The notes beneath the pieces are model-generated. The model saw only the letters and a list, made by a program, of their open reading frames with translations. It was not told the DNA's origin and ran no database searches. This document shows positions 2,396 to 5,848 of a DNA stretch of 64,000 bases, piece by piece. The stretch's first letter is position 1. Each line of letters starts with the position of its first letter. The stretch spans positions 3,224,001-3,288,000 of the forward strand of contig NZ_AP022595.1 of assembly GCF_010731875.1 (NCBI RefSeq), written 5' to 3'. Made by a program: the position numbers and the translations under genes. Origin of the DNA: Mycolicibacterium sarraceniae (lineage in GTDB: Bacteria > Actinomycetota > Actinomycetes > Mycobacteriales > Mycobacteriaceae).

Positions 2396-5300
2396 TCAGG
2401 CTGCACTGATCGCGGAGTCGCTGGCGGACTGGGGAAGTGCCGTGACGATCGTCAGGTTGTAGTCCGTTGCCCCCCACGCCTTCATGAATCCGCTGAGGCT
2501 GAATTCCTGGCCTCCGCTGGGCAGCGCGCTGTCGTTGACCCACACCTTGCCGTTAGTCACGTCCACCCTGAGCACTTGGATCTGGTGGTTGTAGGTGGTG
2601 AAGTCGGGATTCGCCGAAGATGGGCGCCAGTCGGACCGCGACGAATACAGCGAGATGTTGTTGATCCCCACTGTGATCGCGCTGCCTTGTGCCAGAGCGG
2701 CGTCCATATCGTTGAGCGCACGCTGCCCGTCTTCGTTGGTCGCCCTGGCGATCCGGTTGCCATTTGCGTCGTAGGTCGCGTAGTCGGTGTTAACCGCTGT
2801 GACCGCCCAGTGCTGCTCCAACAACCGCGGGGCATCTTTGGGTGAGGCGCCCAGCTCGATCCGCTCGCTGAGGTACATCTTCCGCCCAGGGGAGGCGACG
2901 CTGTCCAGTTCCTTGGCCCACCGAACGACGGTGTCCTCGGCCACGGTTGAGGATCCGGTGACTTGAGCCGCCGCCATAGCCGACGCCATCAACAGGCAGT
3001 TGCCATAGCTTTGTAGCCGGTACAGCTGCGCCAGCTCCACCACGTTGCCGCCGTAAACGCCTGTGCCGGTGACGGTCACGTTGACCTTCCGGTCGATGCT
3101 GTCCGGCTTGGCTATCCCGAGCGCGACCGCGACCGAGTGCAGCGTGGACTGGACGAAGCCGGCGAAGCCGGGCAACGTGGCGCTATCACCATTGTTGACG
3201 GTTATCACGAAACTGTCACTGATGCCTGAGTTTACGAACTCCGGATTCGCGACGTAGCTGTAGCGGCCGGTCTTCTCGTCGAACGTGAGCGTGCCGTACT
3301 TCGGCTGCGTCTTGATGGAGTAGGTGACCGGGAAGCCGTTGTTGGCGGCCGCGTTGAGGTCGACGGTGATCAGCTTGGTGGGGCCCCACTGACTCCACAC
3401 ACTCGGTGCCACAGTGGGTGCCTGGTTGAAGAAGATGTAGGACAACTGGTGGGTCATCGCGGTCCACATTGATTGCAGCGCGGCAAACGGGGACGCCGGG
3501 GCTGCCGCTGCAGCACGAGTCAGTTTGGCTGTCGCAGAGTCACTTACGGTCATCACAGCTGCGGCGTACGCCGCAGCTGTGGCATCGTCCGGGCCCCGGT
3601 TCCCGCCGTTGCCGTACCGACCGTTCTCGCCCGCCGTGGCGTTCGTGCTGATGCCGCCGGTGCCGTATCCACCGCCGCTACCGCCGCCACCGCCGCTGCT
3701 TTGGCGGGGGCCACCGGTGCCCCCAGCTCCGCCGTCACCGCCGTTGCCACCATTGCCGCCGTCGCCGCCGCTGCTGTAGACGCCTTGACCGCCTTGGCCA
3801 CCCGCTCCCGCGTCACCGCCGGTTCCGCCGTCGCCGGCGGCGGTGGTGGCGGTTCCGGCGCCACCGGCACCACCCTTGCCGCCGTTGCCGCCGTTGCCGC
3901 CCTGGCCGCCGGCGCCTATGCCCCAGCCTGCTCGCCCACCGCTGCCGCCCCAGCCGCCGATTCCGCCGTCGCTATTCTGACCGCCTGAGCCGCCGTTTCC
4001 GCCGTCCCCGCCCCGGCCGCCGAGACCGCCAGTCCCATTGGAGTCGTTGGTGATTCCGCCGTTGCCCCCACCGCCGCCCTGGCCACCGTGGCCGCCGACA
4101 CCGCTGGCGCCGGCCGACCCGCCCGACGGCATCACGAACAGGTAGGCGCCGCGGCCAGGCTTTCCACCCAGGGCTCCGCCGGGTCCGCCGTCGCCCCCGG
4201 CGCCACCATCGCCGGCGTTTATCCCGTTGCCGGTGCTGACGTTGTAGGCGGCCGTCCAGTAACTGAAGCCTTTACCGCCGGTGCCGCCCCAGCCGCCTTT
4301 GCCGCCGTTGCCGCCGTTGCCGCCGACGCCGAAAAGCAGACTCCCGTTGCCGCCGTCGCCGCCGCTGCCCCCTTCGGTGCCGGAGAACCCGGTGTAGCCA
4401 TTCGGATCCTCCGCGGTGCCGTTGTCGCCGGCGCGCCCTTGTTGGCCGATACCACCGGCGCCACCGGCGCCACCTCGGCCGAACACCGACAAGCCCCCCA
4501 CGTCACCGCCGGCACCGCCGTCACCGCCGCCGTAGCCGCCGGCGCCGCCGTCACCGCCGTTGCCCATCCACAGACCGCCGCGTCCACCGTGGCCGCCGTC
4601 GCCACCGACGTCGGCTCCGTGGCCAAGAAATGGGCTCTCGCCACCAGTTCCGCCGACGCCACCGGTGGCGTACAGGGCGAAAATGCCGCCGTTTCCGCCG
4701 TTTCCGCCGTTTCCGCCGTAGGAGCCCTTGCCGCCGACGCCGCCGTTTCCGGCGACACCACCCAGCGACATCACCCCACTATTGCCACCGTTGCCGCCCG
4801 CGCCTGCCTTGCCGCCGTATTCGATGGCGTCGCCACCGATGCCGCCGGTACCGCCATTGCCCACGAAGGCGCCACCGTTGCCGCCTCTGCCACCGTTGGC
4901 GCCCACGGCTCCGAAGGCCACGCCGGCATTTCCGCCTTTACCGCCCTTGCCGAACAGGCCGGCCGATCCGCCGTTGCCGCCACTGGCCCCGCCCAGGGTC
5001 TGCGTGCCGTTGCCCCCAGCGCCGCCATTGCCCGCGATCAGGCCGCCTCTGCCCCCGTCGCCGCCGGCACCGTTGTTGATGTCGGCGGCACCGGAGCCGC
5101 CCTTGCCCCCGTCGCCGAACCAGCCTGCGGCGCCGCCGTTTCCGCCGTTGAACCCGTTTCCGCCGTTGCCGAGCAGACCAGCCCGGCCGCCGTTGCATGC
5201 GCTCGTCGGGCAGGTATCGGCGGTGTAGGAGAAGCCATTGCCCATGATGATGCCGCCGTTGGGATGGGCGGCCGTGCCATTGCTGAAGAAGACGCTGAGC

Positions 5301-5848
5301 AGCGACTGGAGGCCGCCACCGACAGCGAACTGCTCGGACTTCGGTGTTTTGGTCACCGCTACGGTCGGGGTGGCCGTCGGCGACGGGCTGGCCACCTCGG
5401 CGCTCGTATCCGTGGTCGGGGCAACGACGCTCGTGGGACTGGTCTGCGCCGACACTGCGCTGGCAGGGGAGTTGGACTTGACGGTCTGCTTGGCGCCGAC
5501 CGTAAACCCGCGTGTCGCGATCTTGCTTTGGGAAGGAGTCTTCGCCGGGCGAGCGGGACCAGCGTGTCCGGTCGACTTCGATGATGTTCGGTCGGGCGAC
5601 GGGCCACTCGAGGAAGCGGATTCGCTCTTCCCGGTCGACGCGCCGGTGTCTGCAGAGGCCGCTGGTGCCGTCGAAGCGATTGCGGCGCCGAGGCTCAGCG
5701 CAATAGCAGAGGCGCCCACCCACGTCAGCACCCGCAGATGCCCGGAAGCGTCCGACTTCGGTGCGGCTATGCCGCCGAATCGAGCCGGCAGCATCCGCAG
5801 TGTGTCCGCGGCGTCGGTGGTCGTGAGGTGACGCGGAGTCGAACTCAT
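2396..5848 (-). CDS. secreted PGRS-like glycine-rich protein with C-terminal C39-like cysteine peptidase domain
   Basis: The predicted protein has 1150 residues. A long N-terminus ends in a hydrophobic segment (about residues 40-60) and an AxA site near residue 66 (PAASA-DT), read as an extended export signal. A Ser/Thr/Pro-rich linker follows to about 190. Then come some 550 residues of GGxGG/GNGG repeats like the PGRS part of PE_PGRS proteins, but no PE domain. Around 815-930 lies an Ig/cadherin-like module (YSIKTQPKYGTLTFDEKTG). The last 210 residues resemble peptidase C39-like domains: Cys951 in YGNCLLMASAM, His1088 in YNHQIQVLRVD, and Asn1105-Asp1106 in WVNDSAL, giving a Cys-His-Asn/Asp set. 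A GGGGGAAG ribosome site lies 9 bases before the ATG. The gene stands alone. Protease activity and substrate are inferred, not shown. Confidence 0.8.
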   Translation of the reverse strand: MSSTPRHLTTTDAADTLRMLPARFGGIAAPKSDASGHLRVLTWVGASAIALSLGAAIASTAPAASADTGASTGKSESASSSGPSPDRTSSKSTGHAGPARPAKTPSQSKIATRGFTVGAKQTVKSNSPASAVSAQTSPTSVVAPTTDTSAEVASPSPTATPTVAVTKTPKSEQFAVGGGLQSLLSVFFSNGTAAHPNGGIIMGNGFSYTADTCPTSACNGGRAGLLGNGGNGFNGGNGGAAGWFGDGGKGGSGAADINNGAGGDGGRGGLIAGNGGAGGNGTQTLGGASGGNGGSAGLFGKGGKGGNAGVAFGAVGANGGRGGNGGAFVGNGGTGGIGGDAIEYGGKAGAGGNGGNSGVMSLGGVAGNGGVGGKGSYGGNGGNGGNGGIFALYATGGVGGTGGESPFLGHGADVGGDGGHGGRGGLWMGNGGDGGAGGYGGGDGGAGGDVGGLSVFGRGGAGGAGGIGQQGRAGDNGTAEDPNGYTGFSGTEGGSGGDGGNGSLLFGVGGNGGNGGKGGWGGTGGKGFSYWTAAYNVSTGNGINAGDGGAGGDGGPGGALGGKPGRGAYLFVMPSGGSAGASGVGGHGGQGGGGGNGGITNDSNGTGGLGGRGGDGGNGGSGGQNSDGGIGGWGGSGGRAGWGIGAGGQGGNGGNGGKGGAGGAGTATTAAGDGGTGGDAGAGGQGGQGVYSSGGDGGNGGNGGDGGAGGTGGPRQSSGGGGGSGGGYGTGGISTNATAGENGRYGNGGNRGPDDATAAAYAAAVMTVSDSATAKLTRAAAAAPASPFAALQSMWTAMTHQLSYIFFNQAPTVAPSVWSQWGPTKLITVDLNAAANNGFPVTYSIKTQPKYGTLTFDEKTGRYSYVANPEFVNSGISDSFVITVNNGDSATLPGFAGFVQSTLHSVAVALGIAKPDSIDRKVNVTVTGTGVYGGNVVELAQLYRLQSYGNCLLMASAMAAAQVTGSSTVAEDTVVRWAKELDSVASPGRKMYLSERIELGASPKDAPRLLEQHWAVTAVNTDYATYDANGNRIARATNEDGQRALNDMDAALAQGSAITVGINNISLYSSRSDWRPSSANPDFTTYNHQIQVLRVDVTNGKVWVNDSALPSGGQEFSLSGFMKAWGATDYNLTIVTALPQSASDSAISAA

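Follow-up and report, generated by a model that had tools for sequence, protein, structure and literature searches.

A PGRS-type protein of Mycolicibacterium sarraceniae with a putative Sec-type signal, an Ig-like module and a predicted C39-like cysteine peptidase domain

The window analysed is a stretch of 64,000 nucleotides of Mycolicibacterium sarraceniae (contig NZ_AP022595.1, positions 3,224,001 to 3,288,000), and the subject of this report is an open reading frame (ORF) of 1150 codons on its minus strand. The parts of the ORF are listed in Table 1; eight bases upstream of its ATG, GGGGGGAAG resembles a ribosome-binding site as read by eye, and the whole protein contains three cysteines only, two at the entry of the glycine-rich region (213 and 218) and one, Cys951, in the C-terminal domain. 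The product is best read, with a probability of about 0.6, as a PGRS protein that leaves by the Sec route, resides in the cell envelope and bears a cysteine peptidase of C39-like (papain-fold) type.

Table 1. Features of the ORF in the window (positions in the window; residues of the encoded protein).
Feature	Residues	Position	Strand	Basis and remarks
Whole ORF; Sec-type PGRS protein, Ig-like module, C39-like peptidase domain (putative)	1150 aa	2396..5848	minus	ATG at 5848
Signal peptide (probable)	1-66	5651..5848	minus	Long n-region, hydrophobic core 44-59, AxA before Asp67; N-termini of relatives similar
Ser/Thr/Ala/Pro-rich linker	67-178	5315..5650	minus	Composition, highest dN/dS of the protein, pLDDT about 24-36
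PGRS-type GGX repeat region	179-785	3494..5314	minus	44% Gly, 102 GGX triplets
Helix and Ig/cadherin-like (Big_9) module	790-926	3071..3481	minus	Big_9 matches of relatives, strands in model, protocadherin matches
Papain-fold C39-like cysteine peptidase domain (predicted)	929-1140	2429..3064	minus	Model, PDB structure matches, conservation
Gln946, presumed oxyanion-hole residue	946	3011..3013	minus	Identical in 34/34 sequences
Cys951, presumed nucleophile, first residue of helix 951-964	951	2996..2998	minus	34/34 sequences and model
His1088, presumed catalytic base, first residue of strand 1088-1096	1088	2585..2587	minus	34/34 sequences and model
Asp1106, presumed third triad member	1106	2531..2533	minus	34/34 sequences

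The ratio of non-synonymous to synonymous substitution rates (dN/dS, NG86) was determined against four orthologues: 0.16-0.27 for the C39 domain, 0.15-0.32 for the Ig module, 0.19-0.37 for PGRS; the linker (0.30-0.98) was relaxed. Values of 0.15-0.37 across the PGRS, Ig and C39 parts mark the frame as a real gene rather than an artefact of base composition. It is hardly credible that the glycine-rich frame arises from high GC content and that the real gene is a short C-terminal part, like the 380-residue entry P0003 (Mycolicibacterium sp. CH28); C-terminal fragments do stand as separate proteins in the databases, and antisense ORFs overlap the window ORF, but the PGRS frame shows the constraint given above, and in 18 of 20 further loci (L038-L057, 18 genomes) one open frame of 1104-1420 codons runs through PGRS and C39. 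The remaining two (L041, L047) are split over two frames; a signal-like N-terminus was found in 19 of the 20, and L054 starts inside the signal.

An exported signal in place of a PE domain had been proposed by the sequence-only reading, and this was supported: hydrophobic residues 44-59 are followed by A64-S-A66 and then D67, and no match to the PE domain (PF00934) was obtained with the full protein or with the N-terminus alone. The n-region ahead of the hydrophobic core contains LPARFGG (residues 20-26, window 5771-5791). The motif GRPLI, described in PMC10216338 as standing at the PGRS start of PE_PGRS proteins, is absent from the window protein; PE matches in this genome are two only, in frames of 119 and 132 residues. 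The putative signal peptide with its AxA site makes Sec the probable export route, and an N-terminus of Sec-like type would argue against ESX-5 secretion.

The glycine-rich, PGRS-style region, also expected from the sequence, is entered through SNGTAAHPNGGIIMGNGFSYTADTC; the PGRS repeat family PF21526 matched the window gene weakly, below cut-off (best 19.5 bits against a cut-off of 27; E 0.005), and its cut-off was passed at other places of the same genome. The full-length model had a mean predicted local distance difference test score (pLDDT) of 62.6 and a predicted template-modelling score of 0.43; blocks between residues 180 and 520 had pLDDT mostly of 57-85 and almost no helix or strand. 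Foldseek with this model returned first 7jjv, a polyproline-II-type antifreeze bundle (E 6e-3; template-modelling score 0.33 by target; root-mean-square deviation 14), which would agree with a polyglycine-II fold of PGRS and is too weak as proof. The PGRS of PE_PGRS proteins has been modelled as a flat polyglycine-II sandwich or 'sail', according to PMC9436101 and PMC10216338, so that the earlier picture of a PGRS 'stalk' is doubtful. An Ig/cadherin-like module between PGRS and the peptidase end had likewise been anticipated: Big_9 scored above the Pfam cut-off in the relatives P0003 (77% identical), P0005 (66%) and P0012, and the model showed strands at this module, with protocadherin structure matches at E 4e-3 and weaker.

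For the C-terminal domain, a structure prediction had been proposed by the sequence-only reading; the predicted structure was papain-like and not of another fold, it was C39-like in its PDB structure matches, and the single Foldseek match below 0.001 was a C39-like peptidase. In papain-type enzymes the catalytic Cys stands at a helix start, the His at a strand start and the Asp after the next strand. The same layout was found in the model, where Cys951 opens a helix, His1088 opens a strand and Asp1106 directly follows the next strand; these residues and Asn1105 lie where they had been placed from the sequence. Gln946, Cys951, His1088 and Asp1106 were identical in 34 of 34 sequences, with whole-region identity to the window protein down to 22%; position 1105 was Asn in 33 of the 34, whereas 60 of the 75 rows in a wider set (A2) have Gly there. 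Peptidase_C39_2 (PF13529) was passed by the relative P0012 (25.0 bits against a cut-off of 24), and this family was matched at E<=0.1 by six of the ten members of alignment set A1.

Other results weigh against the proposed peptidase and its placement at the envelope. The window protein gave no Pfam match to C39_2 or Big_9 at E<=1, nor did the C-terminal piece, searched alone, match C39_2; a paralogue of the same genome remained below the C39_2 cut-off of 24 (17.1 and 21.8 bits in two scans); and the best match of a PDB sequence search (E 0.67) was regarded as chance. Scans of NCBIfam profiles yielded no useful family. The model is poor at residues 1-179 and over much of 530-793, and the arrangement of the parts is unreadable from it. 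The papain fold is common to enzymes that are not general proteases, such as phytochelatin synthase, and to 2b1m, a papain-fold protein without catalytic Cys. The dapB of the window, the ORF that follows dapB and the HNH-like ORF were not found in the stretches around 20 other copies of the gene (22 loci, two places counted twice), and 53 of the 99 genomes that carry the PGRS entry motif treated below had no C39 relative at E<=1e-3.

Two other functions of the domain were weighed against these data. A thiol enzyme of papain fold with a function other than general proteolysis (transpeptidase, isopeptidase or phytochelatin-synthase-like transferase, with wall peptides or thiols as substrates) is unlikely; it would fit the occurrence of the fold in such enzymes, and the fold alone is indecisive, but the only Foldseek match below 0.001 was a C39-like peptidase, and P0012, the sole scanned relative to pass a papain-fold Pfam cut-off, passed that of Peptidase_C39_2. 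It is very improbable that the protein is an adhesin or surface-coat protein whose papain-fold domain only binds: an Ig/cadherin-like module with repeats is typical of adhesins and 2b1m shows that the fold can lack its catalytic Cys, but the four presumed catalytic positions stay identical throughout the 34 sequences although whole-region identity drops to 22%.

The earlier assignment to C39 type requires a restriction: the papain-like, C39-like fold of the model stands, and the domain is not a true C39 transporter peptidase; any proteolysis by it is putative. True C39 peptidases, which process bacteriocins, are fused to ABC-transporter membrane and ATPase domains, whereas a Pfam scan found neither in the window protein. 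C39-like peptidases of the Peptidase_C39_2 type, such as 3erv, are alike in predicted fold and in the Gln-Cys-His-Asp set; they differ in that the window sequence lies below Pfam detection and that the window protein bears a large N-terminal display region.

The distribution of the gene was followed in a sample of 297 genomes of the genus. A homologue search with residues 781-1150 gave no matches, possibly owing to Ala-rich words that took up the list of candidates; with the C39 part alone a single match was obtained, and with a ten-sequence alignment at least 73 (best 7997 candidates by shared words scored). A C39-domain relative at E<=1e-3 was found in 139 of the 297 genomes. PGRS and C39 occurred together in all 20 loci fetched (L038-L057), and PGRS stood ahead of the Ig-C39 part in eight further loci of eight further genomes (L024-L031; their N-termini lie outside the fetched stretches), which gives, with the window gene, 29 PGRS-C39 genes in 26 genomes. 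The closest named relatives are from Mycolicibacterium litorale F4 (L037), Mycolicibacterium sp. CH28 (P0003) and M. rhodesiae JS60 (L036).

The C39 domain was also found without PGRS, as signal and C39 (L081, L083), as signal, linker and C39 in tandem (L080, L082), as signal, linker, Ig and C39 (L084) and, in the same genome as the window (L079), in a form with lipobox-like LVAGC; PGRS is accordingly one display module among several. Short secreted proteins of the C39-like kind in mycobacteria (about 240-400 residues; e.g. P0017, Mycolicibacterium helvum) share the catalytic domain of the window protein and, unlike it, lack PGRS and often the Ig module. The surroundings of the short forms (six stretches) contained tandem copies and no obvious partner gene. 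In a tree of 44 domains the 29 PGRS rows (L024 counted as PGRS) lay on one side of a branch with support 96/93, which fits one fusion event or, alternatively, one loss among the rows across that branch. Secreted, mutually divergent C39-like proteins stand in tandem, four at L080:6467-11309 and three at L082:5092-8730, with flanking genes shared in the two genomes.

A second copy of the PGRS-C39 plan lies in the same genome at 2.67 Mb (L038); its neighbourhood is common to eight other loci (L044-L047, L050-L053), with which it constitutes a second PGRS-C39 lineage. The neighbours, which from sequence appearance we take to be PCD-like, NUDIX-like and P450-like genes, gave at these nine loci no hint of substrate. 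In L050, L052 and L053 the next gene begins within about 15 bases of the end of the PGRS-C39 gene.

The window protein does not stand alone; it appears to belong, as one branch, to a class of PGRS proteins with Sec-type signals. A query of 69 residues over the PGRS entry (motif type SNGTAAHPNxGxxxGNGYSYTxxTC...C; threshold E<=1e-6) matched in 99 of the 297 genomes, at 12 places in this genome and at up to 15 in another; the counts say nothing on PGRS in general, because the query is blind to PE_PGRS repeats. From the 30 best-scoring genomes the best match in each was sampled, a choice biased to close relatives. In 29 of these 30 loci an AxA site comes after a strongly hydrophobic stretch (L104 runs into masked bases); none had a PE match, and the Pfam PGRS repeat matched at E<=0.01 in four. 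Two signal styles recurred under a loose pattern, the LPxEFGG type (12/30) and the VGRVGALAVALGVG type (11/30), and the LPxEFGG-like n-region motif might act as a separate targeting signal. The Cys pair 213/218 (window 5195-5212) was invariant in the 30 loci and is possibly a class-marking disulphide. Three PGRS loci of this genome (L072, L075 and L078, at about 4.387, 1.651 and 0.564 Mb) resembled one another closely by eye; the repeat region of L072 and that of L075 are each spread over several frames, which could reflect assembly error in the repeats or real frame variation. L076 and L077 (same genome, about 2.463 and 0.174 Mb) are near-duplicate PGRS genes by eye, with a Ser/Thr-rich GGDA-type repeat as second half; one copy is a single frame of 1672 residues and the other is split over two frames.

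PE matches at 1.5e-25 or better were obtained in 120 of the 297 genomes (best 16 candidates per genome scored; the cut was set after the table had been seen, the next genome standing at 2.7e-23). The entry motif was found in one of these 120 genomes against 98 of the 177 others, a split of which kinship explains part; as the species are related, its p-value carries little weight. We infer that the lineages fall into two sets, each with its own export route. The PE family search also matched in a control genome labelled Escherichia coli, which was unexpected. Chances are about even that mycobacteria possess two near-exclusive PGRS systems, the known one of PE and ESX-5 and one of a large Sec class with its own entry motif and long signals in PE-poor lineages, and that the latter has its enzymatic branch in the PGRS-Ig-C39 proteins, as surface-displayed cysteine peptidases derived from one fusion.

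PE_PGRS proteins of slow-growing mycobacteria have GGX repeats and the GNG entry in common with the window protein, which differs from them by the absence of PE and GRPLI and by its SNGTAAHPN-type entry. For fast growers, PGRS proteins have been reported in M. smegmatis and Mycolicibacterium with N-termini of 'annotation questionable' and the PE domain left open (PMC11939664); these probably belong to the same class as the window protein, and the main text of that review, which names the two M. smegmatis PGRS genes RS04235 and RS25935, contains none of the words peptidase, protease and cysteine. A Sec-type signal for this class is indicated by the loci sampled in the present analysis. In the open-licence literature searched, neither a PGRS-C39 protein nor a PGRS class exported by Sec was found described.

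A protease on PGRS had been considered a new use of the repeat, which is not upheld, because PecA/PE_PGRS35 is, according to PMC6819658 and PMC9436101, a surface aspartic protease with PGRS. PecA/PE_PGRS35 (Rv1983) and PE_PGRS16 share with the window protein a PGRS with a C-terminal protease domain, the surface location being shown for PecA (PMC6819658); they differ by a PE domain, the ESX-5 route and an aspartic protease, against a Sec-like signal, an Ig-like module and a predicted papain fold, and no aspartic protease domain was matched in the window protein by Pfam scan. If active, the window protein would resemble PecA in being a PGRS-borne surface protease, of a different catalytic class and with a different export signal. 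That it is a Sec-route analogue of PecA, which would process its own chain or further Sec-type PGRS proteins on the cell surface, seems quite unlikely; PecA does so for PE_PGRS proteins (PMC6819658) and the 12 entry matches of this genome are potential substrates, but besides the 53 entry-motif genomes lacking a C39 relative, the entry motif is missing from 93 of the 139 genomes in which a C39 relative occurs.

For the envelope-located peptidase preferred here, the following course is proposed. The long signal peptide would lead the chain through the Sec channel, with cleavage by signal peptidase after Ala66, and the flexible Ser/Thr/Pro-rich linker would span the wall. PGRS would fold as a polyglycine-II sheet-like body and keep the protein within the outer membrane or at it, a fold and location taken by analogy from the PE_PGRS work (PMC9436101, PMC10216338). 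The Ig/cadherin-like module would serve as spacer, the peptidase facing outward, and the C-terminal domain (Cys951/His1088/Asp1106, Gln946) may cut peptide or isopeptide bonds in a substrate that belongs to the envelope or lies outside it.

The window gene is flanked by what, from sequence appearance, we take to be a dapB-like gene on one side and a 13E12/HNH-like ORF on the other; as these were not found beside the 20 copies, its genomic place is not common to them. Elsewhere in this genome (L004:961-2748, about 0.953 Mb) a protein of 596 residues has the same kind of signal, a Ser/Thr/Ala linker and a Big_9/cadherin-like module above cut-off, and ends in HELMHTFGF, presumably a zincin-like stretch; this architecture suggests that hydrolases of different kinds are displayed on a common frame.

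PGRS proteins are mostly discussed in connection with PE domains, ESX-5 and pathogens. Should a whole PGRS class be exported by Sec in PE-poor mycobacteria, PGRS function could be studied separately from PE export in harmless fast growers, and the question of the N-termini of M. smegmatis-type PGRS proteins, left open in print, would have an answer that can be tested; through the C39 branch, PGRS proteins of these species would have a predicted enzymatic activity that is directly assayable.
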